This document shows positions 2,769-29,515 of a DNA stretch of 29,515 nucleotides, piece after piece (position 1 is the first letter of the stretch; each line of letters starts with the position of its first letter). A model generated the notes under the pieces. That model worked only from the letters and a program-made list of their open reading frames with translations. It ran no database searches and had not been told where the DNA came from. The DNA comes from a virus. Position numbers and translations under genes: made by a program. The stretch is taken from IMG/VR virus record IMGVR_UViG_3300031669_000174, positions 1 to 29,515 of that record, one strand, 5' to 3'.

Positions 2769-3035
2769 TTAGACGGTGGTGGAGTCGGTGAGGATGTTGT
2801 AGGAGACGAGTGCGGTGAGCAGTGAGGCCAGCGCCACATTACCACCACGTGATCCAGTGATGGTTGGCTTGGCCACGTAGGTGAAACCCAAGTTTACCTG
2901 GAAGTAAATTGCTGGGTGACCTTGCAGGGCGTCACTGTTGGCCGCGGTGGTTGAGCCAGTAAGCGGGTTGACGTAACCACCCGACCCACCGACATAACCG
3001 CCTCCGGGGTCTGACGTTGGTTGGAGGACTGTCAT
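2769..3035 (-). CDS. Small virion-associated protein (head-fibre/tail-fibre-like C-terminal motif)
   Basis: An 88-residue protein whose ATG overlaps the stop codon of the giant ejection protein by four bases (ATGA). The N-terminal third is Gly/Ser/Thr-rich (GGGYVGGSGGYVNP). The C-terminal half contains AKPTITGSRGGNVALASLLTAL followed by ..ILTDSTT. I recall very similar ITGSRGGNxALASLLTAL...ITDSTT motifs in small phage proteins often labelled head fibre or tail-associated, but I cannot confirm the family. Its position between the ejection protein and the tail spike suggests a minor structural protein or adaptor. No catalytic motif is visible. Confidence 0.65.
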   Translation of the reverse strand: MTVLQPTSDPGGGYVGGSGGYVNPLTGSTTAANSDALQGHPAIYFQVNLGFTYVAKPTITGSRGGNVALASLLTALVSYNILTDSTTV

Positions 3036-6000
3036 CGTTTGCTCCTTGGTTTGCCGACCATGGTGTTGTAGATGAGCTCGCCGGCATTGGCAGGATGCTC
3101 CTCACCGGTTTGGACGCGCCTGAGATACTTGGCTGAGGCCGCTGCCTGAGATGTGCCGCCAATCCCCAGCAGGGTGCCTAGTTCATCAAACGCCTTAACG
3201 AAGTAGTCTGGATACTCCTCCTTCCCGCTAGCCACCTTGACCGTGTCATCCACGAGGTTGATGCCCTTTTGCATAACGCTGACGATGGGCGACAACCGGT
3301 AGTCACCACCGAACCCAGTGCCGAACACCTTCGCGTCCATGGCATTCGCCACATCACGCACGATGGGGATGGGTTGGGTCCACGCCAGGGCCGCCTTGCG
3401 TGCTGCCCACAGCCGCTTGTCCTCGTTCGGTTGCGGGGTTTGGCCCTTGAGGGAGTCGCCGATGATGTTGGCCAAACTCATCATCACAGCGATGGCCGTG
3501 AACTGCGGAATGCTACCCGCGTGGACGGCATTACGGAGCAGACCATACTGGGCAGGACCGTCACCCATGAACATGGTGATGAGTTTCATCGCCTTGTCTG
3601 GGTTGCGCTGCGCAGCCAGTAGGTCCTTGGGGTTGCCGGCCATGAGGGTCAGTCGGACCGTGCGGTCAGCCATGCGGGCTGCGGTATCTGGGTCGTTACC
3701 CTTGCTGATGGCATCACGGTAGGACCCCAACCACGCCGGTTTCGAGATGAGGGCATCGATCATAGCCAACCCATGGAAGGCCTTGCGGTTCCACTCAGCC
3801 TTGAGACTGCCATCACCACGTAGGTGTTCCCACTGGGCGCGCATATCGCGGTCTAGGTTCTCAGGACGATGCTGCATCTCACCAGACAACGCGTGGATCT
3901 GGTTAGTGACATCGTTGGGGTGGCGCAAGAAGTCCATGAACGCACCAGCGAAGGTCGACACCGGAACACGATACTCACCAGGACCGACGACGCGGAACGT
4001 GTCTGTGAGCTGGACGATGACCGTGCTGTATTTGAAACCAAGCACCGATGCCACCAGGTTGCCACGTGCCGCGAGCATTGTGTCAGTGTAACGAGACGCG
4101 GCCTCAGGCATACGACTGGCACGGTCGTTCACAATGTTACGGAGCCACGGTGCCAGTTGCTTGTAGTAGGCCTCACCCACTGTTTCCTGCATTGACCTCC
4201 GCACCTCAGGGTTTCCAAGCAACCGATTGATGAGGATGACTGACTCGCGGTGGGTGAGGTCCTTGACGACACCGGAGGTATGGCTGAGCAGGGTGGTGTG
4301 GTAGTCAAGGCTTAGTGGGTAGATGGCACCGGTCCGCTCCTTGGTGTGACTCTGAGGCGTGATGGCCTTAGTGTAACCACCACCGTAGTCGAACAAGGCC
4401 GTGGCGTTGCTCTCCTGCTTGACGGCCACGGTTGAACGACCAGGTGCCCCGACTAGTGGGAAGTAACCACCATCCAGCGTCTCAGAGGTGCCATCCTTGA
4501 AGTTGACCGTAACCGGGACGCGTTCCTGCTTCTGCAGATCAAGACCCGTCATGCGTTTGTGGAGCGCCGCCACGTCTGGCCACAGCATCTCAAGGGTGTC
4601 CCAGGCGCCCTGCACGAACTTGGTGTCGTGGTGGTTCAGGTTCGAAAGGGCCGCATCCACGGTTGCAGGGGTGAACCCGAAGTCACTGTAACCCTCGATC
4701 AACTTCTGTCGGTTGAGGTCTGTGCCCATGTTGAAGAGCATGGTGATGATCTGCATACGGTTGAGATCACCCTTGACACCTGGAACAGTGAAGGTATCCA
4801 GCATGCTGTTCTGCTGTTCCTTCGGCATTTGGTCCATGGCCTCCATGAGTTTCTGGTTGACCTTGATGATGAGGTCGTAGTCAGCATTCTGGGCCTTCAC
4901 GATGGGGTCCCAGATGGCGCGGTGCCACGGTCCATTGGGGTCATTGCCATCAAGCCAGTTAATGATCTGCTCAGCCTTGACCATCTCGGAGTCGGCAGAC
5001 TGCAACTTGCGAATGGCCTTGTCCTTGGCGGACTCTGTGGAGTTGGGAAGTTTAAGGGGCGTCTCCTTGTTGTTAGCACGAGCCGAGGAGTCCAGTTCAG
5101 CCACCAGGTCCTTGTAGTCTACGCGCTTGCCGTCCAGCAGAACGTTGAACTCCTGGTAGGCCAGGTGTTTGATATTCTTGAAGGCATCAGACAGATCACG
5201 CAGGTCCGCGTTGGTCATCTGTTTGTGCGGAACCTTGAACCCCTCATCGAGAAGTTTATCTGCGATGACCGGTTCTTTGTTGTCAGCGAGTTGTGCATCC
5301 ACCCACTGCTGCAGGGTCTCCTTGCGCGGAGGGGCATTGGGATCCGCGTCGGCATAACCGAACCGTTGGAGCAGGGTGTTGACCTGCGCCTGGTAGGTTC
5401 CACCAGCCTTACCGAGGTTTCCCTGCACACGAGGTGAGGCGAGTTTCTTTGTCAGGTCTTCGAGTTTGTCGTCGGCGGCACGAGCACGCTTCGCCTCGAG
5501 ATACATGAAGTGGTTCAGAATCTCCTGGGTCTTAGCCTCAGCCGCATCAGCATATTTGTTCTTGCCCTGAAGGTCAAATGCTTCGCGGGCAAGGCGGCGC
5601 TGGGCCAGAAGATATTTGTTGGGGTCTGTGTTGGCAAGTGGTTGATGGTCTACGAAGGCAGAGGCCGCGATGCGGAAGGACCTCATGGGCGGTATCTCAT
5701 CCGCTGCGGCCTTACGTGCGGTGGTGTCCTGCTGGTTGGACGTCTTGTTGAGAAGTGCGCGATCCTGCTGGTTGGCGGTCTCATCCGCGCGGCGCTGCTG
5801 GTCGACCTCACGACCACGCATATTGCTCACGGTGTCAGCGGTCCGCTTCAACCGGTTGAGGCTGCGTAACTCAAGGGCCAGCACATCCTCACGCCGGGTG
5901 CTGTGCAGTTCATCGACGGCCTTGGCGCGCAGGGCCGCATCATCTGACATCAGATCCCCGTGTTCGGTCAGCATGCGGGCATTGGCCTCACGATCGATCC

Positions 6001-9000
6001 GTTTGCCGCGCGCCTCAAGCCCTGAGATGGCATTGATCAGGTCATTGCCTGAGTCGAAACCAAGCAACACAGCGGCCGCATCTGGGTCCATACCGCCGTC
6101 ATGGGTGTAGACGTAACCCTTGCCACGCCCTAGTTCCTTCAGCTTCTCCTCGCCGTAACGGTCGATGATGGCCTGGCGACTGAGCTTGACCTCAGTCCCA
6201 TCCTCGGTAGCGCCGGTGGTCAGGGCACGAAGGGCGATGTAGGCTGGGTCCTTGTCCAACTCATCGGCCACCTGGACCCGCTTCTCAGCAAGGTTCTCAC
6301 GCCAATCGCGGCGCTGCTGGTCAGCATGCTGCTTGGCGAGGGTGGTAAGGAGGCGCTCCTTGGCCGTGCTGATCTCATCTTGCTTAGCCTTGAGATAGAC
6401 CAGGAACTCCTTCTCACTGACACCCATGTCCTTTGCAGAGGTGAAGAGTGGTATATCACCAAGGGTCTTGCGTGCAGCCTCAATCTCCTGGTCGGAAGCG
6501 TAGAGTCGGTCGAAGACACCACGCACCTCATCGGTCATAGGAACGTGGAGCTGCTCGGCAGTCTTATAGATCTTCATGAGCCAGCCGCTGAACCGTTGAA
6601 ATGGCGTGCGCAGATCCTCAGACGGCGCCTTGCCCTCACGCATGTAGGTCTCGTGGGCACGGGCAAACTGCTCATGTTGATCTACGGTGAGAGGAGCATC
6701 GCCCTCAGCGCCAAGCCATTTGCGGATGACGCCATAGTCACTCTTCACCTGGTAGGACACGCCTTCCGTGCCGGACAACTCATGAAGCATCTCCAAGTAG
6801 AAGTGACCGAGTTCGTGGATGGGGGTGGACTTGTCATCATTGAGCAGGCCGAGGTTGAACTTAGTCTTTCCACCGTCCTGCTTCTGGAACTCGAGGTAGC
6901 CGCGTTCACCACCGTTACCGGCCGTCGGTGGCTGGAACAAGGCCTGGCCGGCCTCAATCTTGGCCTTCATCTCAGGCGTGATCTTGAGACCAAGTTGGTC
7001 GGTGTAGGTGGTATCTGCCGCACCACCCGCCTTCGGTGTTTCATCGGTGGCAACCTTCAAGGTTTCAAGTTTCCCACCACCCAACTTCTTTACCACGTCG
7101 TTCACAACCGAAGGAAGAAGTTTGTCGTAGAAGGCCTTCATGCCCTGGCCACCAAGGGTCATGAGTTCGTCCTTGCGAATCTCGCCGTGTTTCTCAGGGT
7201 CCGATGCGAGGATCTTCTCTGAAACCTCCTTACCTGCAACCTCCTCTAATGTCTTGCCAACGAGTTCATCGGGGTGGCGGGTGGCGGTCTTGATCACGCC
7301 GTCTTTGTCTACATTCATGTTGATGTTACCACCGTCCGCCTGCAATGCCACAGTGCGGTCACCCTCGCGGTTGGTGCGCCCGGACCAGCCAATAGCCGAG
7401 ACTGCCTGTGCGAGGTTGTAGCGGTCGGCGCTCTGCTGCCCCGTCACGAAGGCCACCTGGTCGAGCCCGTTGTCCACCGCATAGCGCAGAAGGCGCTTCA
7501 CCGCGAGGGACGTCCAGGCCTTGGTATCGGTGACGAAGGGGGCGGTGGGGACCTTTTTAGATTCCATCTCATTATTTAAGACCCACAACCATGCTTCATC
7601 CTCGGTCCTGAATCGAGGCCCTGGCATATTCAGATATTTTTGAGCGTGAAATCCTTGATTAGTGGGGTCATCAGACGGGGCGCTCCAATCGAATGGAGTT
7701 GATTCAACATGCCAACCGCTATCTTGGAGGATTTTGATCTGCTCATTGCGTGGAACATCGCCCTTAAATCCTTCCTTCCGCCCCTTCTGCGCCCAGTCAC
7801 TCTGCACCTCCTCGATGAACAACATTCGTTCCCCGTTAGGACCGGGTCGTTCATCAAGACGGACGTGGGCCAGGATGTTCTGCTGGTCGAAGTGGCTGGA
7901 CTGGAAGGACTCAGGTTTCCCCATGACCCCGGGAGGTAGAGGCTTCACGGGCAGTGTAAGGAGCACTTCCTTATAGTTGTCCTTAGGACCGGGGAGGGTG
8001 TAGTCTTGATACTTTGTGTCTGTGGTATTTGAATTAGATACGAGCTCGAAGAAGTGCGCCTCTAGATCGATCGCGGCAAAACGCGCGTTCGCAGCTTGGC
8101 GGCTAGTGATAAAACCAGAGTCCTCAGCAGCTTCAGTGAATTTAATCACATCACTAAGGGTCGCCGGGTCTCCGTCGATGGCAAACGGGTGACTCTGCGA
8201 ATAGGCCTCAGCAGGGGCCATGACGTTAATGTCACCCACACCCTCCAACTTCAGTACTGCGTTACGCAGTTCTTGAGTGGGCAGGAATTGCATGGGTTCA
8301 CCCTCGCCCAGGATCTTCTCCTCAACCCTGACACCACCCTCCTGGATGAACTGTCGCAGTTCATCGATGCCGGTCGTCTTGCCCTGAAGATCGAGGTAGT
8401 CGTTGACCCCAATGGCATCCATCTCAGCCTGCTTGAACTTGCCCTCCTTCTGGCGGGCAGCAAGCCAGGACCTGACCTGCTCCGTGTTCGCGGTGCCATC
8501 ACGTCCGGCCAACTTCTCGATGGCCGGGTCCTGCACAGCACGGTCCAAGGCGGAGTAGAACACAGGACCAGACTGGTAGAGCATCCGCCCCATGGGATCA
8601 CCACCGTCACCCTTGACGTCGATCGGACTGTTGAAGTCAGTATTCAGTAGGTCACTGATCGGCGTGCTGACCTTGACCCCATCCCAGATCGTGTTGGTGA
8701 AGCGGTTGCGCGTGCGCTCGATGCCCTCACTGTAGAGTTGGCCACCGCGCATCTTTCCACCAGCCACACCGTAGAGGTTCCCGTCTTTTAACTCGGGAAA
8801 CCTCTCCACAGCCAGTTGGCCCAGCGACTGCAGCAGATCGGTTCCAATACCGGGGATGCCAGTGTCTGAGGACTGATCCAACGTGCCGGTGTAGAGGTGG
8901 CCGTCTCGCACCTGCGCCGTAACCCACGCGTGGACCCCATCCTTGTAGACGCTGACCCCAAGCTGGTCGCCATCGACGTAACCGGTGGCGGGTAGACCTA

Positions 9001-11011
9001 GACGCGGGGTGGTAAGGTCGGTGCGCTCGGCACCTTTGAGGTCGCCGAGTTTGGTGAAAGCAAGGACTTCAGCGCCGTCCCGACCCTGGAGATCAGCGAC
9101 GCGGGCTGCTCGGACATCTTCATGTTCTGGCGCAGTGAGTCCTCGCGCTGCTTGGCCGCTGCCAGCATTGCCGCGAACCGGCCCCTGTGCTCGTCGTCCA
9201 TCGGTTGGAAGTCCATCTGATGCTCCTGGTGTCGGAAGGCCGCGTCCAATGTCTAACCTGGCGGCGATGTCCTTGGGGGTGATGAGGTCGGGTGTCTTTC
9301 CTGAAGCGCGCTCGGCGAAGTTAATAGCGAAGTTAGTGAAGATCTTGGACGTCGCATCGGCGGTCTTGGCAGCTTCACCACCGGCGTCCAGCAGCTGCTG
9401 CTTAATCTTATCCTGGATTGCCTCACGATCTGGGTGCGGAGTATCAGTTTCTGACATCTTCTGCAGTTGGTCCTTGGCGGCCTGGACATTCTGCACCAAC
9501 CGTTCCGCCTGGGCATCGGCCTCGTTCATCGTCAACCCGCCAGGCGTCAGGCGCACATCCTTGGCCAGACCATCGAAGTGGGGTGTATCCACGGTCGACG
9601 TCAGGAACTTGTCCACCGGCACACGCAGGTCAGTGGCTGTGGCGTTGGCCTCCTCGAAGTTACCGATGCCCATCTCCTGCGCCTTGGCCACAGGGTCCTC
9701 GCCCTGACCCTGCCAGTAGCGGGTGAACTCACGAGCCGGGATGGCAACCTCAGCACCATCTGCCAACTGAGCGAGGTGGTCACGGAATGCCTGAGGGTCC
9801 TCAGCCAGAACCCGAGACCGCTTCATCGTGTCAGCAAGGTCATTCATGTATTGCATATTCTGGTGAGACTTGACGAGACTGTCGCCGATGGCATTCACGG
9901 TATGGACGTTCTCGTATAGGGCGAAGGTGATGAACTGGTTCGACCATCCCTTCCACAGGTTACCGTCCGGCTCGTGCAGCTGGCGCAACGTGTTGTCGAT
10001 GGCAGTCATGCCCATGGACAGAGGCACCGCACGGGCCGTCTGTGTAGCGGCAGTCTTGAGAATACTCTGACCCTCAACGGTAACCGGACCAGGGACCTGC
10101 GTGAACAAGGCCAGGTTGGCCAACCCCGTACCAAGCCCCTCAACGGATGCCTTCCAAAGACTACCCGTCTTCGCCATCACCTCATCGAACTTGGCCTTGT
10201 CAGCGTTGAAGGCGAAGAGTGGTGCTGTGAACTTGCCACCAGCAACCATCGCACCGAGGGTGCCGACCATTCCGGGCACCTGTCCAAGGATGCTCGGCGC
10301 CTTGTAGAGCGGATTGTCGAACAGTTTACCAGTGGCCGGGTCCTTGAGTTGCTGCGGTGCAGATGCCATCTGGCCAGTACTTAGCAACCACTCGATTTTG
10401 TCCGCGGCCGCATGGACGAGAGCACCTGGATCCAACCACCACGGCAGACCACCACGGACCTTGGTAACCTCATCAGGTGAGGGGGTCAAAGATTTAGCAA
10501 ACTCAGTGAACGGACCGAAAAAAGCACGGTTGACGTCACCTATCTTGTCAGTGATGTCGGCCATGATTTCACCGTCACTAGACAGTTTGCTATTATAGAC
10601 CCCACGGTTGATGGCGTCTTGCTTCACAGCCTCGAGTTGCGATGCAGTAAGACCCTTGAAGTCACCGGCCTGAGTTCTTTTATCGAACTGATCCTCAAGG
10701 TCCTTGTAGGTTTCTAGGTCGTCGTGCATCGCGGCTGCGTTGAACGGGTTCGTGGCGATGGCGGTAGTCTTAGGATACTGACGGACGAAGGCGTTAAAAT
10801 CGAAGTTGCTCAACCTAGCCGCGCGGTTGAACCCCTGAGGATCCTGTTGCACCAGATCTGGCGTAACCCCCAATGCGCGTGCCGTCACCTGCTGGGACCT
10901 TGCCTGGGTGGGATCTTGTTGCACCCCGTAGGACAGGCCGGTCTGCAGACCGTTCACCTTCTCCAGGTCCTGTTGACTCTGTGCGAGGAGGTCGTCCAGC
11001 TGGTCAGGCAT
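3032..11011 (-). CDS. Giant polyvalent internal virion/ejection protein (gp16 position), with HExxH metalloprotease motif
   Basis: A 2659-residue protein filling 27% of the window, in the genomic place of T7 gp16. Segments I recognise from large polyvalent phage proteins, with rough positions: an N-terminal region (NPFNAAAMHDD near 92); a hydrophobic region about 230-390; a block at about 415-530 (AEVAIPAREF, LTMNEADA); FYSALDRAV to GVRVEEKIL at about 815-900; a YTLPG / SSHFD..NILAHVR / EVQSDWAQ / VTGQQSADRYN block at about 1000-1200; GLKITPEMKAKIEAG near 1345; HELGH at 1399-1403 (zincin-like HExxH); a long charged alpha-helical region at about 1480-1900; and a conserved C-terminal region (LFNMGTDLNRQK near 2094, GGYFPL near 2182, a hydrophobic segment near 2510). 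Known gp16-type proteins are ejected and help DNA cross the cell envelope. I see no lytic transglycosylase motif. The start ATG overlaps the upstream stop as TGATG. Confidence 0.85.
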   Translation of the reverse strand: MPDQLDDLLAQSQQDLEKVNGLQTGLSYGVQQDPTQARSQQVTARALGVTPDLVQQDPQGFNRAARLSNFDFNAFVRQYPKTTAIATNPFNAAAMHDDLETYKDLEDQFDKRTQAGDFKGLTASQLEAVKQDAINRGVYNSKLSSDGEIMADITDKIGDVNRAFFGPFTEFAKSLTPSPDEVTKVRGGLPWWLDPGALVHAAADKIEWLLSTGQMASAPQQLKDPATGKLFDNPLYKAPSILGQVPGMVGTLGAMVAGGKFTAPLFAFNADKAKFDEVMAKTGSLWKASVEGLGTGLANLALFTQVPGPVTVEGQSILKTAATQTARAVPLSMGMTAIDNTLRQLHEPDGNLWKGWSNQFITFALYENVHTVNAIGDSLVKSHQNMQYMNDLADTMKRSRVLAEDPQAFRDHLAQLADGAEVAIPAREFTRYWQGQGEDPVAKAQEMGIGNFEEANATATDLRVPVDKFLTSTVDTPHFDGLAKDVRLTPGGLTMNEADAQAERLVQNVQAAKDQLQKMSETDTPHPDREAIQDKIKQQLLDAGGEAAKTADATSKIFTNFAINFAERASGKTPDLITPKDIAARLDIGRGLPTPGASDGLPTDGRRAQGPVRGNAGSGQAARGLTAPEHEDVRAARVADLQGRDGAEVLAFTKLGDLKGAERTDLTTPRLGLPATGYVDGDQLGVSVYKDGVHAWVTAQVRDGHLYTGTLDQSSDTGIPGIGTDLLQSLGQLAVERFPELKDGNLYGVAGGKMRGGQLYSEGIERTRNRFTNTIWDGVKVSTPISDLLNTDFNSPIDVKGDGGDPMGRMLYQSGPVFYSALDRAVQDPAIEKLAGRDGTANTEQVRSWLAARQKEGKFKQAEMDAIGVNDYLDLQGKTTGIDELRQFIQEGGVRVEEKILGEGEPMQFLPTQELRNAVLKLEGVGDINVMAPAEAYSQSHPFAIDGDPATLSDVIKFTEAAEDSGFITSRQAANARFAAIDLEAHFFELVSNSNTTDTKYQDYTLPGPKDNYKEVLLTLPVKPLPPGVMGKPESFQSSHFDQQNILAHVRLDERPGPNGERMLFIEEVQSDWAQKGRKEGFKGDVPRNEQIKILQDSGWHVESTPFDWSAPSDDPTNQGFHAQKYLNMPGPRFRTEDEAWLWVLNNEMESKKVPTAPFVTDTKAWTSLAVKRLLRYAVDNGLDQVAFVTGQQSADRYNLAQAVSAIGWSGRTNREGDRTVALQADGGNINMNVDKDGVIKTATRHPDELVGKTLEEVAGKEVSEKILASDPEKHGEIRKDELMTLGGQGMKAFYDKLLPSVVNDVVKKLGGGKLETLKVATDETPKAGGAADTTYTDQLGLKITPEMKAKIEAGQALFQPPTAGNGGERGYLEFQKQDGGKTKFNLGLLNDDKSTPIHELGHFYLEMLHELSGTEGVSYQVKSDYGVIRKWLGAEGDAPLTVDQHEQFARAHETYMREGKAPSEDLRTPFQRFSGWLMKIYKTAEQLHVPMTDEVRGVFDRLYASDQEIEAARKTLGDIPLFTSAKDMGVSEKEFLVYLKAKQDEISTAKERLLTTLAKQHADQQRRDWRENLAEKRVQVADELDKDPAYIALRALTTGATEDGTEVKLSRQAIIDRYGEEKLKELGRGKGYVYTHDGGMDPDAAAVLLGFDSGNDLINAISGLEARGKRIDREANARMLTEHGDLMSDDAALRAKAVDELHSTRREDVLALELRSLNRLKRTADTVSNMRGREVDQQRRADETANQQDRALLNKTSNQQDTTARKAAADEIPPMRSFRIAASAFVDHQPLANTDPNKYLLAQRRLAREAFDLQGKNKYADAAEAKTQEILNHFMYLEAKRARAADDKLEDLTKKLASPRVQGNLGKAGGTYQAQVNTLLQRFGYADADPNAPPRKETLQQWVDAQLADNKEPVIADKLLDEGFKVPHKQMTNADLRDLSDAFKNIKHLAYQEFNVLLDGKRVDYKDLVAELDSSARANNKETPLKLPNSTESAKDKAIRKLQSADSEMVKAEQIINWLDGNDPNGPWHRAIWDPIVKAQNADYDLIIKVNQKLMEAMDQMPKEQQNSMLDTFTVPGVKGDLNRMQIITMLFNMGTDLNRQKLIEGYSDFGFTPATVDAALSNLNHHDTKFVQGAWDTLEMLWPDVAALHKRMTGLDLQKQERVPVTVNFKDGTSETLDGGYFPLVGAPGRSTVAVKQESNATALFDYGGGYTKAITPQSHTKERTGAIYPLSLDYHTTLLSHTSGVVKDLTHRESVILINRLLGNPEVRRSMQETVGEAYYKQLAPWLRNIVNDRASRMPEAASRYTDTMLAARGNLVASVLGFKYSTVIVQLTDTFRVVGPGEYRVPVSTFAGAFMDFLRHPNDVTNQIHALSGEMQHRPENLDRDMRAQWEHLRGDGSLKAEWNRKAFHGLAMIDALISKPAWLGSYRDAISKGNDPDTAARMADRTVRLTLMAGNPKDLLAAQRNPDKAMKLITMFMGDGPAQYGLLRNAVHAGSIPQFTAIAVMMSLANIIGDSLKGQTPQPNEDKRLWAARKAALAWTQPIPIVRDVANAMDAKVFGTGFGGDYRLSPIVSVMQKGINLVDDTVKVASGKEEYPDYFVKAFDELGTLLGIGGTSQAAASAKYLRRVQTGEEHPANAGELIYNTMVGKPRSKR

Positions 11012-22425: not shown

Positions 22426-23913
22426 TTACTCCTTCATCGCGAATGGATCGTAGGCGCCAGAATCCTGGTGCTTAGTTTGAACAGGAAAACCGAAGTCATC
22501 ACGCCTGCCTGGTGCTACGGGAAAGGCGAACGTAAGGGCGACGGCGTCAGCACGGTCAGGTGAGCGACCGAGTTCTTCACGCACCTCCTCCTTCTCGTTG
22601 ATCTTGAGCTTGTCCCCGTTGTAGCTGTAGGTGATGGCGAGTAGTTCGTCGCGCAGCATGGTCTCGCCCTTGGGGATCGAGCCGCCCGCCTTCACCCACT
22701 TCGCCATCTCAAAGATCATCTCAGAGCGCTTGTTGAAGTAGTGATGGTCGTTGCTGCGGCCGGAGAAGTAGACCTCTGTGCATTGACGATTCATTGTGGT
22801 GCGCAGGCAATCGACCACGCCTGCGCCGTATCCACCCGTCGCATCCACGAACGTGGCGTCATCTTGGGCGGCATCCTGCTCCTGCGCCACCTGCTGGGCG
22901 ACAAGCACAGAGTCTGGGATGTGCATAGGTTTCAATGGGAAGAGCACATTCCCATGCCGATGCGCGATGACGGAGTCGTCCAGTCCTTGGCGCGCCACAT
23001 CCACACCAAGGATCTTGGCGGCGAACTCGAACTGCCCCTTCTTGTAGACCCGCGCCATTGCGGCATCGACCTCAGCAGCGGTGAGCAACGCGTTCACGTC
23101 TGCGGATGGGAACTGACCAAGCACGCGGATCTTAGCGAAGTCAGACTCAATCCCATAGTCGTCAAGCCACGCCTGCAGCTGCGTCTTGTTCGTCATGCGC
23201 GCCGTGCGGCTATCGATCTGCCTGGTATTCCACCGGTGCTTGAAGCGGCCAAAACATTCGCGGAAGCGACCGCGGCTTCTGGTGGGGTTGCCGAACGCGC
23301 ACCAGATAATCTGCGTGCCCTCATCAGTCAGGGCGCCCTCAGCAACCTCCCAGATGCCATCAGGAATGGCCGAAGCTTCGTCGAAGACAAGCAAGACACG
23401 CTTGCCTTTGTTGTGGAGTCCTGCGAACGCCTCAGTGTTGCGCTCAGACCAAGGCACCATGTCCACGCGCCAGGTCTTGTCATGGTCCTTGGTGGTGCTG
23501 AACAAGGCCGTGGCGGTGAACTCGAACCAATGGCGGTTGATGGCGAGGCGATGCCACTTGGCAAGTTCTGACCAGGTCTTTGTTTTCAACTGGGTCTCAG
23601 TGTTCGCGGTGACGATGCCCTTGGTATCCTCCATCGTAGACATTGCCCAATAGATGATCCACGCCACCAAAGCAGATTTGCCAATGCCGTGACCCGATGC
23701 CACCGCCTCCTGAATCGCCTCGGTGGGGGTGAGCAGCCCCATCTTGATGTCATTGAGAATATCGCGCTGCCAGTCGTCGGGTCCGTCAGGGAACTTCTCG
23801 AGTTCTCCATTCTCGCCCCATGGGAATGCCAACAGCACGAAGGCGAGCGGATCGGCCCGGCAGTCCATCACCAGGTCAATGAGCTCCTCTTCAAGCTGCA
23901 GGTAGTCAGTCAT
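22426..23913 (-). CDS. terL: Terminase large subunit (packaging ATPase-nuclease)
   Basis: A 495-residue two-domain motor. The ATPase domain has Walker A SGHGIGKS (73-80, Lys79) and Walker B VLLVFDEAS (Asp178, Glu179), with a GNP coupling-like motif at 208-210. The RNase H-like nuclease domain has its first acidic residue at GVDVARQG (Asp305), a second at VDATGGYGAGVVD (357-368), and the C-terminal SPDRADAVAL motif (Asp453/Asp456). All key residues are present, so it should be active. TerL packages DNA into the procapsid and cuts the concatemer. It is somewhat shorter than T7 gp19 (586 residues). Its ATG overlaps the small terminase stop by four bases. Confidence 0.96.
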   Translation of the reverse strand: MTDYLQLEEELIDLVMDCRADPLAFVLLAFPWGENGELEKFPDGPDDWQRDILNDIKMGLLTPTEAIQEAVASGHGIGKSALVAWIIYWAMSTMEDTKGIVTANTETQLKTKTWSELAKWHRLAINRHWFEFTATALFSTTKDHDKTWRVDMVPWSERNTEAFAGLHNKGKRVLLVFDEASAIPDGIWEVAEGALTDEGTQIIWCAFGNPTRSRGRFRECFGRFKHRWNTRQIDSRTARMTNKTQLQAWLDDYGIESDFAKIRVLGQFPSADVNALLTAAEVDAAMARVYKKGQFEFAAKILGVDVARQGLDDSVIAHRHGNVLFPLKPMHIPDSVLVAQQVAQEQDAAQDDATFVDATGGYGAGVVDCLRTTMNRQCTEVYFSGRSNDHHYFNKRSEMIFEMAKWVKAGGSIPKGETMLRDELLAITYSYNGDKLKINEKEEVREELGRSPDRADAVALTFAFPVAPGRRDDFGFPVQTKHQDSGAYDPFAMKE

Positions 23914-24446
23914 GATTGATCCTCGTCCTTCCGCTTACGCGCCTTAGCGAGGCGGTCAGCAAGATCGAGGTTCATGTTCATGTTGATGTTCTCAGTGCGC
24001 TGCCGATATTTGTCAGGGCAGTTAGCAGAAAGCAGGAAGGCAATGAGCGTGTTGCTATACACGCGCTTGGTGCCAACGAGCGCACCACCCTGGTAGATAG
24101 GTTCGTCGACTCCCTGGTGGGCGCGTCTGTGTGCCTCAGCCTCAAGCGCCTCGATGCCACACTTCATGGCCTCCTCATTGGCGGCCTTGTAGACGGGATC
24201 GAAGTGGCGGCGGTCGTAGTCTGATTTGATACTGATGCCGGACTTTTCACAAGCCATGACGCGGTTGGCGTGGTGGGTGAGTTCCTCAAGCAGGATTCCC
24301 CACCGCTCTTCGCTGATCTTGGGTTGAATGTAGCTTCCCTTCGCAGGACCTCGTTTGCCGGGATCAGACGTAACCTTCTGCGCGTGTCCCCGTCGCTTTG
24401 GCGGCAGCGCAACGGGCTCAGTTTTCTTCGGTGGTTTAGGGCTCAT
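23910..24446 (-). CDS. terS: Terminase small subunit
   Basis: A 178-residue protein. The basic Pro/Lys-rich N-terminus (about 1-45) is followed by a helix-turn-helix-like region (LLEELTHHANRVMACEKSGISIKSDYDRRH) and the typical small-terminase oligomerisation region EALEAEAHRRAHQGVDEPIY, then GGALVGTKRVYSNTLIAFLLSANCPDKYRQR. It ends in a charged helix. It recognises packaging DNA and loads the large subunit. It is the first gene of the leftward late operon, so its upstream region (24447 onward) should hold the late promoter. The start ATG is preceded by GAGG about 8 bases upstream; the next gene overlaps by ATGA. Confidence 0.9.
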   Translation of the reverse strand: MSPKPPKKTEPVALPPKRRGHAQKVTSDPGKRGPAKGSYIQPKISEERWGILLEELTHHANRVMACEKSGISIKSDYDRRHFDPVYKAANEEAMKCGIEALEAEAHRRAHQGVDEPIYQGGALVGTKRVYSNTLIAFLLSANCPDKYRQRTENINMNMNLDLADRLAKARKRKDEDQS

Positions 24447-24575
24447 GGTAATACCTCGTTATCACTTAATTCTATGTCGCGCCTACACCAAATGACCACG
24501 CGTGTAAACACCTTTGTGAGCTTAGCACAATGTTGTAGAGTCACCTAGAACGTGGTCCTTGCACGCTTTGATGGG

Positions 24576-24587
24576 TGTGCATGCACA
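24576..24587. repeat. 12-bp perfect palindrome TGTGCATGCACA (double octamer site)
   Basis: TGTGCATGCACA is fully self-complementary and contains the octamer TGTGCATG on both strands, overlapping. A further single copy (TGTGCATG, followed by CG) lies at 24626-24633, and a one-mismatch reverse copy (TATGCACA) at 24675-24682. It looks like a binding site for a dimeric protein. Confidence 0.75.
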
Positions 24588-24640
24588 ACTTGGGTCATCT
24601 ACAAGCACATATCCAAAACGATGCTGTGCATGCGTAAGTA

Positions 24641-24750
24641 GTGAAAAAAAAGTAGATAGATACAGTTCTACACATATGCACAATCTTTTCTCTATTCTAA
24701 TTAGAGAAAAAGTAAGTAATATAGTAGTATAAAAATAGATAATATATAAG
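24641..24750. other. AT-rich island (possible DNA unwinding element)
   Basis: By direct count this 110-base stretch has about 25 G or C bases (23%), in strong contrast to the surrounding GC-rich genes. It has an A-run at its left end and TATATAAG at its right end, with several TATAAT-like hexamers on both strands. It is flanked on both sides by TGTGCATG octamers. This is the expected look of a duplex-melting element beside initiator sites, although strong promoters could give similar composition. Confidence 0.65.
24685..24712. repeat. Inverted repeat inside the AT-rich island
   Basis: CTTTTCTCT (24685-24693) and AGAGAAAAAG (24703-24712) form an eight-base perfect stem (TTTTCTCT/AGAGAAAA) around the nine-base loop ATTCTAATT. 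It could form a hairpin on either strand and might serve as a terminator separating divergent transcription, a primase or initiator site, or an operator. Confidence 0.65.
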
Positions 24751-24765
24751 GGTTTTGGAAGTATG

Positions 24766-24801
24766 TGTGCATGTGTGCATGTGTGCATGGATGTGTGCAA
24801 C
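24766..24801 (+). repeat. Tandem octamer array (iteron-like): TGTGCATG x3 plus a variant
   Basis: Three perfect head-to-tail copies of TGTGCATG occupy 24766-24773, 24774-24781 and 24782-24789. After a four-base spacer there is a variant TGTGCAAC at 24794-24801. A reverse-orientation copy (CATGCACA) lies at 24835-24842. The array borders the right side of the AT-rich island and lies about 180 bases upstream of the first early gene. Confidence 0.85.
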
Positions 24802-24846
24802 CATGTCCCTGGTTACATCGCGGAGCCCTACCTACATGCACACGCA

Positions 24847-24860
24847 CACATACGTATGTG
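24847..24860. repeat. 14-bp perfect palindrome CACATACGTATGTG
   Basis: CACATAC/GTATGTG is a perfect dyad five bases after the reverse octamer at 24835-24842. It shares the CACA/TGTG ends of the octamers but has a different core (TACGTA), so it may bind a different dimeric regulator. Confidence 0.7.
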
Positions 24861-24952
24861 CGGCAGGCCGATTTGGCGCTTACGCGCGGGTTGCATCATG
24901 GCCTGCGTCAAGTCGGTTTTCCGTATTTCCGCGGTTTACCCGGGTCTGTATT

Positions 24953-24958
24953 TATAAT
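24953..24958 (+). promoter_or_regulatory. Candidate -10 box (TATAAT) for the early operon
   Basis: A perfect TATAAT lies 25 bases before the ATG of the first early gene, in the context GTATTTATAATAATATC. No good -35 hexamer is present at 16-18 base spacing, so activation by a protein bound at the upstream palindromes or octamers is plausible. The same TTTATAATA core occurs before the 27474 gene. Confidence 0.4.
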
Positions 24959-24983
24959 AATATCGAATGCCTCGAGGTAATCT

Positions 24984-25310
24984 ATGGGCAAGCACCGATC
25001 CAAACCGCCTACCCCTGCGGCCACTGGTCCGTTCATCCCAGATGAAGGGCAGAGACCCAAGAAGAACGATGGCGCCCGTCGTCATTGGGACAAATATCGC
25101 GAATCTCAGCGATTCCAGGTGCTCACCACCGAGGACGGCCAGGACACCGAGGTGGTCGTTGACAGTTACGAAGAACTTGCCCAACACCTCAATCTAAGTA
25201 TCAGCACGCTTCGTCAATACTTTGCCGGCGGCGGCGGTAATTTCAAAAGAACCTTTGAGGGCAAGATCGTCATCGTTACGCGCGGAAGGACGGCGCCCAA
25301 TGGCCGTTAA
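24984..25310 (+). CDS. HTH-like small early protein, candidate regulator or replication accessory factor
   Basis: A 108-residue protein. The first 45 residues are Pro/Lys/Arg-rich (MGKHRSKPPTPAATGPFIPDEGQRPKKND) and probably disordered and DNA-contacting. The C-terminal part has a compact domain: VVDSYEELAQHLNLSISTLRQYFAGG followed by beta-type NFKRTFEGKIVIVTRG. The helix-turn-helix pattern (SYEELAQHLNLSISTLRQYF) plus a short beta-hairpin resembles the NUMOD1-like HTH modules attached to phage proteins, but I cannot name a family. It is the first gene right of the control region; CGAGG about 7 bases upstream serves as ribosome binding site. Its end overlaps the primase-helicase start by 11 bases, so the two are co-translated. 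Confidence 0.65.
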   Translation: MGKHRSKPPTPAATGPFIPDEGQRPKKNDGARRHWDKYRESQRFQVLTTEDGQDTEVVVDSYEELAQHLNLSISTLRQYFAGGGGNFKRTFEGKIVIVTRGRTAPNGR

Positions 25311-27393
25311 GACCCCAATCCGTAAGGTCAACGGTCATTCAAATCGCGCCTCTGCCACCATGATCCTAGCGGAGGAGAAACTAGCCTCCTCAGGTCTTAC
25401 CCTCGTCGATGCGGATCTACTTCATATTGATATTCTTGAAGCCGGTCAACTTCCAGACGTTTACGGCAAGCCCAAGGACCAGCGACCAACTTTACTGTTC
25501 AATTATATCCACCCCATCACGGGTCAGCCACTCACCCACCAACCCAAGTTCCCACCCGCTAGTCGTGCGAGGTTCTTAGGTGGTGCCGCTGGATTCGGTG
25601 GCCAGGTGGAGAAGCAACTTAGATACATCGGCCCGCCCAACCTGCCGCCGGCTGCTTACTACCCCACCAACATCGACTGGCTTAAGGTCGTCAACGACAT
25701 CAATATTAAACTCATCATTACCGAGGGCGAACTCAAGGCCGCCAAGGCCTGTAAAGAAGGGTTCCCGACCATAGGCCTTGGTGGTGTCTGGTCCTTCCGT
25801 AGCACGAGGTTCGGCTGCGGCATGGTCCCCAGCCTTGAACTCGTGAACTGGGCCAGGCGTGAGGTGGTCATTCTGTTCGACTCGGATCTTAGGACCAACG
25901 ATAACGTCTGCGCCGCTGTGAATGCTTTGACCAAGTTGCTGACAGGTGAAGGTGCTGTCGTTAAAGTTGGGTTCATCCCAGCAGACGGCGACGACAAGAT
26001 AGGTCTCGACGATCTTCTTGTCCGACCAGGTGGGAAGCAGCAACTTATCAATATCCTTGACGGCAGTCAGCACTTAGGCTACTCAAGGCCTTTATGGGCC
26101 CTCAATGACCGGTATGTCTTTGTGAATCGTGGCGGCTACGTGCTCAATCGCCAAGGCCCTGGAATCGATGCTATCCAACCAACCCCATTCGTGAATGCTA
26201 TCGAAGCGACCCTCAGTTGCGTGATGCAAGAACTTGACGACGAGGGGCGCATCAAGCAGAAGGCTGTCTCTGCTGCCAAGGAGTGGATTCACTGGCCTCT
26301 ACGAGCTGCGGTCTCCAGTCTTACCTACCTGCCAGGTGAACCGCGGATCATCGAAACGGAGGGGGACCCCTACGGCAGATGGAATCTTTGGGGTGGTTGG
26401 GGCTGCAGCCCGGTCAAAGGAGACGTGAAACCGTTCTTAGATCTGGTCGATTTTCTTTTTACTGGGGCCACGGAGGCCGAGAAACTATGGTTCATCCGCT
26501 GGTGCGCCTATCCCATCCAACACCCAGGCACCAAGTTGGCATCGGCCGTGGTGCTGCATGGCGAGGAGGGCATCGGTAAGGGTCTGCTGGCCCACGGTCT
26601 CAGCCTTGTCTACGGCCAGAACTTCCTTAAGATTGGTCAGGATGAACTTGAGAGCCCGTTCAACAGTTGGTTGGCCCATCGACAGTTCATCTTTGGGGAT
26701 GAGGCAACTGGGTCAGAGCACCGTAAATATGCAGCCAAGCTCAAGGGTCTTATCACATCTGAGACGGCGATGATCAATGAGAAGTATGACAAAAAGTTCG
26801 AGCTCGTGGTCTGCGCCAACTTTCTCTTTGCCTCGAACGATGCAGATGCCTTTACGATGGACGACAAAGACCGTCGTTACTTCGTGCATGAAGGTCCGGC
26901 CCAACCACGTGAGCATGCTTTCTACGCTAAGATCAGCAACTGGTTAAAGAAGGACCCACTTGCCGGCCCCAACCTTTTCTACTATCTCCTGCACCAGGTG
27001 GACCTAGGGAGCTTTGAACCATTTGACCGGCCGCCTGTAACCCAGGCGAAGCGCGCCATGATCGAGGCCACAGCACCAGACATCCTCACATGGTGCCGAC
27101 AACTCATCACAGAACCGGAACTAGCCCTGCTACCTGGGACACCGACCTGCGACCTTATTACCTCAACCCAAGCTGTGGCCCATTTTGAATACCACCATAA
27201 TCCCGCGAAGCCAACCAGCAAGAATTACATGACAAAGATGCTCCGCAAGGCGGGCGCGGTGCAGGCATGCAAGAACATGATCATCGTAGATCCGAGTGGG
27301 CGGCGGTCGCGTTACCTCGCTATCAGGAACCAGGAACTTTGGCGGAACGCATCACAGGACCGAGCCCAAAGGTATCTCAAAACCGTTAAATAA
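25300..27393 (+). CDS. Primase-helicase: TOPRIM-like domain (DUF3854-type) plus SF3-like helicase (DUF5906-type)
   Basis: A 697-residue protein. A TOPRIM-like core has LIITEGELKAAKACKEG (about 138-155, catalytic Glu), VVILFDSDLRTND (about 189-201, DxD) and DDKIGLDDLL (about 228-238). This is followed by a linker and an AAA+/SF3-type helicase with Walker A HGEEGIGKG (about 421-429), Walker B FIFGDEA (about 463-469), a sensor-like VVCANFLFASND (about 503-514) and basic DDKDRRYFVHE (about 521-531). This is a common layout for phage and plasmid replicative primase-helicases that prime and unwind at an origin. The chosen ATG (25300) overlaps the preceding gene; an upstream frame start at 25222 reads antiparallel low-complexity sequence and is rejected. 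No polymerase gene is visible, so it probably lies further right. Confidence 0.87.
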   Translation: MAVKTPIRKVNGHSNRASATMILAEEKLASSGLTLVDADLLHIDILEAGQLPDVYGKPKDQRPTLLFNYIHPITGQPLTHQPKFPPASRARFLGGAAGFGGQVEKQLRYIGPPNLPPAAYYPTNIDWLKVVNDINIKLIITEGELKAAKACKEGFPTIGLGGVWSFRSTRFGCGMVPSLELVNWARREVVILFDSDLRTNDNVCAAVNALTKLLTGEGAVVKVGFIPADGDDKIGLDDLLVRPGGKQQLINILDGSQHLGYSRPLWALNDRYVFVNRGGYVLNRQGPGIDAIQPTPFVNAIEATLSCVMQELDDEGRIKQKAVSAAKEWIHWPLRAAVSSLTYLPGEPRIIETEGDPYGRWNLWGGWGCSPVKGDVKPFLDLVDFLFTGATEAEKLWFIRWCAYPIQHPGTKLASAVVLHGEEGIGKGLLAHGLSLVYGQNFLKIGQDELESPFNSWLAHRQFIFGDEATGSEHRKYAAKLKGLITSETAMINEKYDKKFELVVCANFLFASNDADAFTMDDKDRRYFVHEGPAQPREHAFYAKISNWLKKDPLAGPNLFYYLLHQVDLGSFEPFDRPPVTQAKRAMIEATAPDILTWCRQLITEPELALLPGTPTCDLITSTQAVAHFEYHHNPAKPTSKNYMTKMLRKAGAVQACKNMIIVDPSGRRSRYLAIRNQELWRNASQDRAQRYLKTVK

Positions 27394-27712: not shown

Positions 27713-27937
27713 ATGCGTTGCTACACCGTCAAGGCCTTAGGTAAGGACGCACGACCGGTTGGTATCCGCTATGCCGGCACCGCGGCCGATGCCAAGACAA
27801 CCCGCGAAGAGTTGATGACCGTCTTCGGTCTCAACAAGAAGGATGTGGTCATCGATACCGCCGTCATCGAGACCCAGAAGGATGACCTGCTGGTGTTCAT
27901 CAACGACCTCTTGCGGAAGCAGGACAAGGCGGTGTAA
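27713..27937 (+). CDS. Hypothetical protein (74 residues)
   Basis: MRCYTVKALGKDARPVGIRYAGTAADAKTTREELMTVFGLNKKDVVIDTAVIETQKDDLLVFINDLLRKQDKAV. The alternating beta and alpha pattern (N-terminal strand CYTVKAL, strand VGIRYAG, helix TREELMTVFG, strand VVIDTAVIET, helix LVFINDLL) suggests a small alpha/beta fold. I do not recognise the family. The ATG at 27713 follows an AAGGAGCATCC site placed just after the terminator-like structure; an upstream TTG inside that structure is unlikely. The GTG of the next gene follows its stop by one base, so it is co-translated with the DUF6378-like protein. Confidence 0.65.
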   Translation: MRCYTVKALGKDARPVGIRYAGTAADAKTTREELMTVFGLNKKDVVIDTAVIETQKDDLLVFINDLLRKQDKAV

Positions 27938-27938
27938 C

Positions 27939-28214
27939 GTGGCGAAGCAAAGAAAATCAGTCCTTACTGAGGCCGAGTCCTTGGTCAATGGGCCTCGGCA
28001 GGCGGCATACGGCAGCCCCGCTGACAACTTCAGTCGGTGGCGTGATATGTGCCGCGCGACCGGACGGCCGGGGCTCGCAGACGTGACCGCCGAGGACCTG
28101 GCCGTCGCCATGGTGCTGCTCAAGATCGCCCGCGATACGGGTAGCCCCAAACGCGACAATGCCGTGGACGGCGCAGGTTACTTCGATGTGCTCGACCAGG
28201 TGCGAGGGTTGTAG
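27939..28214 (+). CDS. DUF6378-like phage protein
   Basis: A 91-residue protein from a GTG start (27939) one base after the previous stop. It shows the DUF6378 pattern: LTEAESLVNG.RQAAYGSPADNFSRWRDM near the N-terminus, DVTAEDLAVAMVLLKIARDTGSPKRDNAVDGAGYFDVLDQV at the C-terminus. The family is common in phage early regions and is predicted all-alpha; I believe a link to MazG-like nucleotide pyrophosphohydrolases has been suggested, but no activity is established here. It overlaps the next gene's GTG by one base. Confidence 0.8.
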   Translation: MAKQRKSVLTEAESLVNGPRQAAYGSPADNFSRWRDMCRATGRPGLADVTAEDLAVAMVLLKIARDTGSPKRDNAVDGAGYFDVLDQVRGL

Positions 28215-28853: not shown

Positions 28854-29243
28854 ATGGCCATCAAGACCTGCCTCAACCGTGATGCCGCAACCCGCTTCCT
28901 CCGCAAGAACGGGGTAGCGAAGGAGTTCTACAACCAGCTCATCTATACCAACGGCCGTAAACTCTGCATTAATGTGGAGGACATGCTGGCCCTCCTGAAG
29001 CCCAAGACCAAGGCCGTTGTGGACGTGCCGAAGGTTCTCTCCCCCACCGAGCAATATGCCCTCAAGGGAAACCTCAAGCGTGATGCGAAGATCGAGGGCA
29101 AGAAGTTGGGCACCGCCGCTCAGATCCGGCAGTTGATCAAGGACGGGCGCAGCAACGAGGAGATCCGCACCGTGTTGAACCTCCCTGAGACCAAGCGGCA
29201 CTATCCTCAATACTACCGCAACCAGCTTAGCAAGGAGATTTAA
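28854..29243 (+). CDS. HTH-containing early protein
   Basis: A 129-residue basic protein. The N-terminal half ([47 protein letters not shown]) is alpha/beta. The C-terminal region is a helix-turn-helix type: [39 protein letters not shown], which I have seen in other phage early proteins of unknown role (IRxLIxxGxSNxEIxxxxx..D.kRxYPxxYRxxL). This suggests DNA binding or a dimerisation module. An AGGAGAA ribosome binding site lies 8 bases upstream of the ATG. The pentapeptide-repeat gene starts one base after its stop codon. Confidence 0.6.
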
Positions 29244-29244
29244 G

Positions 29245-29511
29245 ATGGCGATGCGACGATACACCCCCGAAGAGATCCAGCAGGTGCTAGCCGATCACAA
29301 GAAATGGCTGGCAGACGAAGGCGGATCCAGGGCGGACCTCTCCGGGGCGAACCTCTCCGGGGCGAACCTCTCCGGGGCGGACCTCTCCGGGGCGGACCTC
29401 TCCGGGGCGAACCTCTCCGGGGCGGACCTCTCCGGGGCGGACCTCTTCGGGGCGGACCTCTCCGGGGCGAACCTCTTCGGGGCGGACCTCTCCGGGGCGA
29501 ACCTCTCCTAG
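29245..29511 (+). CDS. Pentapeptide-repeat protein
   Basis: An 88-residue protein with a helical N-terminal part ([30 protein letters not shown]) and then twelve A(D/N)L(S/F)G pentapeptides, the core of a right-handed quadrilateral beta-helix. Family members such as Qnr and MfpA mimic DNA and bind gyrase; many phage copies are uncharacterised, so gyrase, nuclease or transcription-factor mimicry are all possible. A GGAG ribosome binding site precedes the ATG by 8 bases. The stop TAG interrupts the DNA repeat, and the following bases (GCGA) continue the same repeat register, so the gene could be a shortened form of a longer array. Twelve repeats give three coils, shorter than most known active members. 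Confidence 0.85.
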
Positions 29512-29515
29512 GCGA
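29331..29515. repeat. 15-bp tandem repeats encoding the pentapeptide array
   Basis: Eleven consecutive 15-base units of the form TYCGGGGCGRACCTC fill 29341-29505, with a partial unit before (29331-29340) and a degenerate partial unit after (29506-29515, TCCTAGGCGA instead of TCCGGGGCGA). Variation is limited to A/G in the sixth-last position (Asn or Asp) and C/T in the second position (Ser or Phe). The near-perfect identity indicates recent expansion and potential for copy-number change by slippage. Confidence 0.9.

Follow-up and report, generated by a model that had tools for sequence, protein, structure and literature searches.

Replication origins of the phage-inducible chromosomal islands (PICIs), both Gram-negative and Gram-positive, lie 3' of the rep gene and carry iterons, short repeats whose sequences vary between elements (PMC6092414), and the literature confines the layout in which two iteron sets flank an AT-rich region to PICIs. 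In the Staphylococcus aureus pathogenicity islands (SaPIs), iterons located downstream of rep are read by the C-terminus of Rep, and Cch2 likewise reads iterons with its C-terminal domain (PMC7581432), while the alpha protein of P4 binds its origin through a winged-helix domain (Yeo 2002, cited in PMC4234260). Most uncultivated phages have no known origin, and full-text searching within an open-access library turned up no description of such origins for phages with DUF3854-DUF5906 primases. Here we analyze the viral record IMGVR_UViG_3300031669_000174 (the window, which covers the record whole at 29,515 nucleotides), in which copies of the octamer TGTGCATG cluster at 24576-24848, about 0.5 kb 5' of a primase-helicase gene. 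Judging from sequence and comparative evidence, this cluster is probably a phage replication origin of the P4-alpha, SaPI-Rep, and PICI type, with the primase-helicase at 25300-27393 as its initiator. The record is classed as linear in IMG/VR and is therefore probably a fragment.

All seven exact copies of TGTGCATG in the record, counting both strands, fall within 24576-24842. Dinucleotide shuffles of the whole window held a mean of 1.83 copies and a maximum of 5 (0/100 with seven), and shuffles of 24550-24870 only held a mean of 0.11 and a maximum of 2 (0/5000 with seven). Allowing one mismatch gave 36 octamers window-wide against 36.2 expected, and since there is no enrichment at that level, the octamer signal is one of local clustering. 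Four near copies also belong to the cluster, so that about 11 exact or near sites lie to the left and right of an AT-rich island:

24576-24587, + (24576-24583) and - (24580-24587): two overlapping iterons forming the 12-bp palindrome TGTGCATGCACA
24602-24609, -: near-match iteron TGTGCTTG, 1 mismatch
24625-24632, +: iteron TGTGCATG on the island's left side, about -79 from the island centre
24640-24760: AT-rich island of ~120 bp, GC 0.24, proposed DNA unwinding element
24675-24682, -: near-match iteron TGTGCATA within the island, 1 mismatch
24766-24789, +: perfect tandem of three iterons (24766, 24774, 24782) on the island's right side, +62 to +85
24794-24801, +: degenerate iteron TGTGCAAC, 2 mismatches; TGTGCAA is the form in the closest relative, L026
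24835-24842, -: inverted iteron TGTGCATG, about +131 from the island centre
24841-24848, -: near-match iteron TGTGCGTG, 1 mismatch

The first-pass annotation of this DNA had described seven exact octamers, at least two near matches, a triple tandem, and a 12-bp palindrome. The count, the clustering, and both arrangements are as it described, one coordinate moves (24625, not 24626), the near matches number four, and its impression that no further exact copy exists is borne out by the count over the whole record. It had also placed the octamers on the flanks of an AT-rich island, and GC indeed drops to 0.24 across 24640-24759 from about 0.58 for the window, with iterons on either side. The + strand of the island is purine-rich right of its centre, and the average of relatives shows a like trend. 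That the cluster is a low-complexity, TG-rich microsatellite or a product of chance is scarcely credible: the triple tandem does have a dinucleotide-rich flavour, and some unrelated database matches (L013 and L014) are plain TG-rich repeats, yet none of the 5000 local shuffles reproduced the cluster, its copies are scattered over 270 bp in both orientations, and its core is kept in L026.

The gene linked to the cluster, and the segment of it that may read the repeats, are as follows:

25300-27393, +: proposed initiator, a 697-aa primase-helicase with DUF3854, an SF3/DUF5906 helicase (superfamily 3), and a C-terminal winged-helix-like domain
27154-27324, +: winged-helix-like segment, coding for residues 619-675 and proposed to be the iteron reader

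The DUF3854 part carries Toprim-like motifs (ITEGE...FDSD), and 38/38 aligned sequences share, without variation, the Toprim-type E/DxD residues (E142, D194, and D196), the GxGK of Walker A, and the aspartate of Walker B. We thus assign a Toprim (DnaG-type) primase domain to DUF3854, by motif only. The linked gene also encodes an SF3 helicase, as seen from DUF5906, the Walker A and B motifs, and fold matches to NrS-1 and SaPI5. An AlphaFold2 model of the whole protein has a pLDDT (predicted local distance difference test) of 90 and matches the NrS-1 helicase (6k9c, E 8e-22), the SaPI5 primase-helicase (7ola, 2e-10), and PriRep1 (7pds, 5e-10). The C-terminal 104 residues, modelled with a pLDDT of 96.5, have a winged-helix-like topology.

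Compared with the described systems, the locus combines familiar parts in a different way. P4 alpha has the same order of Toprim-like primase, SF3 helicase, and C-terminal winged-helix-like domain, together with short origin iterons, although the window protein belongs to another sequence family (DUF3854/DUF5906, with no D5_N match) and no second crr-like element was seen. SaPI Rep and the SaPI5 protein resemble the proposed initiator in their SF3-type helicase and iteron-reading C-terminal domain (predicted in the window), but SaPI primases are of the archaeo-eukaryotic primase (AEP) type (PMC7581432), in contrast to the Toprim-type motifs here, and their origin position differs. NrS-1 provides the best match to the helicase part, by both fold and sequence (sequence E 3e-25), whereas its N-terminus is an AEP PrimPol that recognizes priming sites (TTTGGTTA or GTGA/GTGG) rather than an iteron origin (PMC8718748). 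The window site would thus work like a P4, SaPI, or PICI origin, yet it is not a PICI origin, because it lies 5' of the gene rather than 3' of rep (PMC6092414); moreover, unlike a PICI, the window comes from a tailed phage, whose virion module is epsilon15-like.

An alignment search yielded relatives, and the survey took in 80 IMG/VR loci plus three phage genomes that encode related primases (84 loci counting the window). Dereplication left 58 representatives, 54 of them with enough upstream sequence. Searches for relatives by the primase alone found no close ones in viral contigs or in genome contigs, a pattern search for the exact palindrome plus flank found no matches, and a distant nucleotide search in phages matched the primase gene and nothing else. 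In 58 of the 84 loci, window included, the 90-bp stretch with the locus's highest AT content lay no more than 1.6 kb upstream of the primase; after dereplication, this was so in 37/54 against 7.5 expected. Significant 7-mer clusters were present in 20/58 island windows and in 21/232 control windows from the same loci (p 6e-6). The words differ between lineages (TGTAGCG, TGTAACA, GTAATAG with nine copies in L079, GTTGCCT with seven in L094, TGTATCT, GTAACAG, and TGTGCAT). The copies usually stand on either side of the island, and at many loci their distance from its centre is ~55-100 bp on the left and 20-115 bp on the right. Besides the window, L026, L079, L094, and others have an AT-rich region between two iteron sets.

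The closest relative, L026, has a primase 52% identical to that of the window and an AT island 3.3 kb upstream of it. CTGTGCAA/CTGTGCGG repeats stand on either side of this island, and its TGTGCA iterons have a geometry similar to the window's. Within 340 bp round the island we found 4/5 copies of TGTGCA, the core taken from the window, in the 12.7-kb locus (1/5000 shuffles), and 6/8 copies of TGTGC[AG] (0/5000 shuffles). The comparison with related phages that the first-pass annotation had called for is thus favourable, as both L026 and the wider family show islands with repeat clusters upstream of the primase.

We compared iteron 6-mer similarity with primase domain identity at 28 loci by partial Mantel tests, an analysis in which shared ancestry is only partly removed and island positions were hand-set for four loci. 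The identity of the primase's C-terminal domain was the strongest correlate of iteron similarity and predicted it with the SF3 domain controlled (0.41, 0/500 permutations) and with the N-terminal domain controlled (0.31, 2/500 permutations). With the C-terminus controlled, the SF3 and N-terminal domains contributed nothing (-0.18 and -0.01). Given that its identity alone among the domains predicts iteron similarity after controls, these comparisons point to the C-terminal domain as the iteron reader.

Two neighbouring genes invite other explanations of the repeats:

23910-24446, -: terminase small subunit (TerS), PHROG 4044, divergent, left boundary of the region
24984-25310, +: 108-aa helix-turn-helix (HTH)-like protein, between the proposed origin and the primase

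TerS is the next gene in the window, and a terminase-like operon adjoins the region in many relatives, so the repeats might be TerS binding sites within a cos or pac packaging site. We regard this as very unlikely and rejected it on two relatives that keep the repeats with no window-type TerS neighbour: L026 retains the TGTGCA core although the gene facing its island is no relative of the window TerS, and the L079 neighbour is ParB/DNA-methyltransferase-like, yet nine repeats persist. Iteron similarity also tracks the primase C-terminal domain. The L079 neighbour itself (957-2582, -), a gene with ParB-like and DNA-methyltransferase-like parts by PHROG, faces the iterons in the terminase gene's place. 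Partition loci often contain short repeated words close to replication genes, and with this ParB-like neighbour in mind one could see the repeats as a site for partition or recombination (parS-like, attachment, or resolution). This we judge slightly more improbable still, since no ParA/ParB or integrase was recognized among the window proteins scanned and such a site leaves the co-variation with the primase C-terminus unexplained.

The octamer of the window also recurs beside primase-helicase genes of unrelated viruses. We fixed the tandem 16-mer TGTGCATGTGTGCATG beforehand and searched for it in 2.9 million viral contigs, with the reversed 16-mer as control. The tandem word matched 15 loci, 7 of which, from four lineages, have it in gaps adjoining primase/helicase genes: L012/L022 (VapE), L018-L020 (VapE/DUF5906/PriCT_2), L023 (DUF5906/PriCT_2), and L017 (Prim-Pol/AAA_25). 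The L018 contig stops before the gene, which was placed via segment identity with L019 and L020; matches in coding or TG-rich DNA (L011, L013, L014, L016, L024, and L025) were left uncounted. The reversed word matched 16 loci, none of them (0/16) in such gaps (Fisher test by locus, p 0.002). The detection queries included proteins from the tandem matches, which favours that set, so we also ran Pfam on 10 neighbour proteins of the 16 control loci and found one DUF5906 gene, ~0.9 kb from a coding match (L127). A scan for octamers with a two-base gap carries less weight than the search for the perfect tandem, because most of its matches were unrelated (integrase genes, coding sequence, and low complexity); L145, L150, and L165 alone adjoin primase genes.

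L165 (IMGVR_UViG_3300012983_002170) resembles the window, with exact TGTGCATG seven times round an AT-rich island beside a primase-helicase gene, and these seven, on both sides of the AT-rich stretch, are all the copies in its 8.2 kb. It differs in having a P4-family primase (D5_N, NrS-1-like HBD, and Pox_D5), octamers 3' of the gene, and a 10-bp iteron spacing (TGTGCATGGC). Other words are arrayed round AT-rich DNA beside primase-helicase genes in L019 (4080-4360, GTAGTCA, 8/10 locus copies), L022 (1450-1640, GTAAACC, 8/9), and L023 (1860-2260, TGTGCGG, 8/10), and these arrays are likely further origins of similar style. It is quite possible, though we stop just short of calling it probable, that there is a widespread, undescribed class of tailed-phage origin upstream of DUF3854-DUF5906 primase-helicases, with a conserved AT-rich core and a word and C-terminal recognition domain that change together by lineage, and that, in addition, unrelated families of primase-helicases, those of the window and of L165, each came to use TGTGCATG independently.

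The main rival reading is that the repeats are an operator array only, through which a phage regulator (the 108-aa HTH-like protein, or another whose gene lies beyond the fragment) controls divergent promoters in the AT-rich gap while replication starts elsewhere. The divergent genes with their AT-rich gap, the adjoining HTH-like gene, and a 12-bp palindrome typical of dimeric regulators all fit such an array. We nonetheless consider it unlikely. The HTH gene is undetected in most relatives that retain the island and iterons, the repeat sequence follows the primase C-terminus above other domains, and the octamers of L165, L145, L023, and L019 lie 3' of primase genes rather than at a divergent promoter. 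Nor did a promoter scan find sigma-70-like promoters above chance in the island; promoter and terminator scanning together gave nothing exceeding chance, and the sole Rfam matches were miRNA artefacts of low complexity (mir-297) that fell short of gathering scores. Thus, of the iteron-type origin or switch put forward in the first-pass annotation, the origin is the best-supported part and now has comparative backing, the regulatory switch remains as the main, though unlikely, rival, and the virion type assumed there did not hold up, as described below.

Several results weigh against an origin at this site. The region parts divergent transcription units, where operators are expected, and, taken singly, no more than roughly one relative in three passes the repeat test. 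By lineage, the tandem-word contrast is weaker (4/12 vs 0/14, p 0.03), and in L019 and L022 other words (GTAGTCA and GTAAACC) outnumber the octamer. Searched alone, the C-terminal domain has no Foldseek match below E 0.1; most of its hits are DNA binders of the winged-helix kind, and the fold matches listed for it do not include P4 alpha (1KA8). Finally, GC skew, which had been suggested as a check on the origin, fails to indicate the cluster; its cumulative maximum, at 22,564, has a sign opposite to that of bidirectional origins in bacteria, and because genes are divergently oriented and the genome is incomplete the signal is confounded and counts neither for nor against.

If the cluster is an origin, the C-terminal domain of the primase would bind the iterons, and, in line with the SaPI Rep proposal, helicase would assemble on either side of the island. 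This AT-rich stretch would then melt and be threaded into the SF3 rings, after which the Toprim-like domain would prime. Each lineage would have a private word because iteron sequence and C-terminal domain co-diverge. Bound next to the diverging early and late genes, the protein may also control how the primase operon is transcribed, and such autoregulation via the iterons is compatible with the proposed origin. Should this proposal be correct, an AT-rich island, lineage-specific iterons, and a DUF3854-DUF5906 primase would together form a recognizable origin signature for dozens of phage lineages, a layout described as exclusive to PICI satellites would extend to tailed phages, and natural initiator-iteron pairs would allow a direct test of the winged-helix recognition code.

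The genes round the cluster correct two further points of the first-pass annotation. It had taken the virion module to be T7-like, a premise that fails because the terminase large subunit (TerL), which lies with TerS left of the cluster on the minus strand, is 47-49% identical to those of phiV10 and epsilon15; its nearest matches are Pseudomonas UFJF_PfDIW6 and phages of the phiV10 and epsilon15 type, and on this evidence the module is not one with a T7-type terminase and portal. It had also picked the proteins encoded at 24984 and 28854 for a DNA-binding test; the 25300-27393 primase-helicase, acting through its C-terminal domain, is the likelier initiator. We rejected the 108-aa HTH-like protein as a conserved initiator, which it probably is not, since homologues were detected in only 10/83 relatives' loci (11/84 counting the window).

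In L026 the HTH gene still adjoins the primase. The 129-aa protein at 28854-29243 (+) of the window has an evident homologue, by eye, at L026 2509-2934 (+), where it separates the origin-like island from the HTH gene, so that gene order is rearranged between the two while the HTH-primase pair remains joined. A pentapeptide-repeat gene (Pfam PF00805) at 29245-29511 (+) reaches the record end, and long GTGCCAACCTGG-type repeat arrays ~5.5-6.4 kb past the primase start in relatives (L032, L036-L038, L049, L052, L060, and L064) resemble such genes. Among the late genes, 3032-11011 (-) encodes a protein of 2659 aa that contains an LPD22 "large polyvalent protein" domain. Separately, 27843-28214 (+) encodes a 123-aa DUF6378 protein for which the PHROGs label phosphofructokinase looks doubtful.
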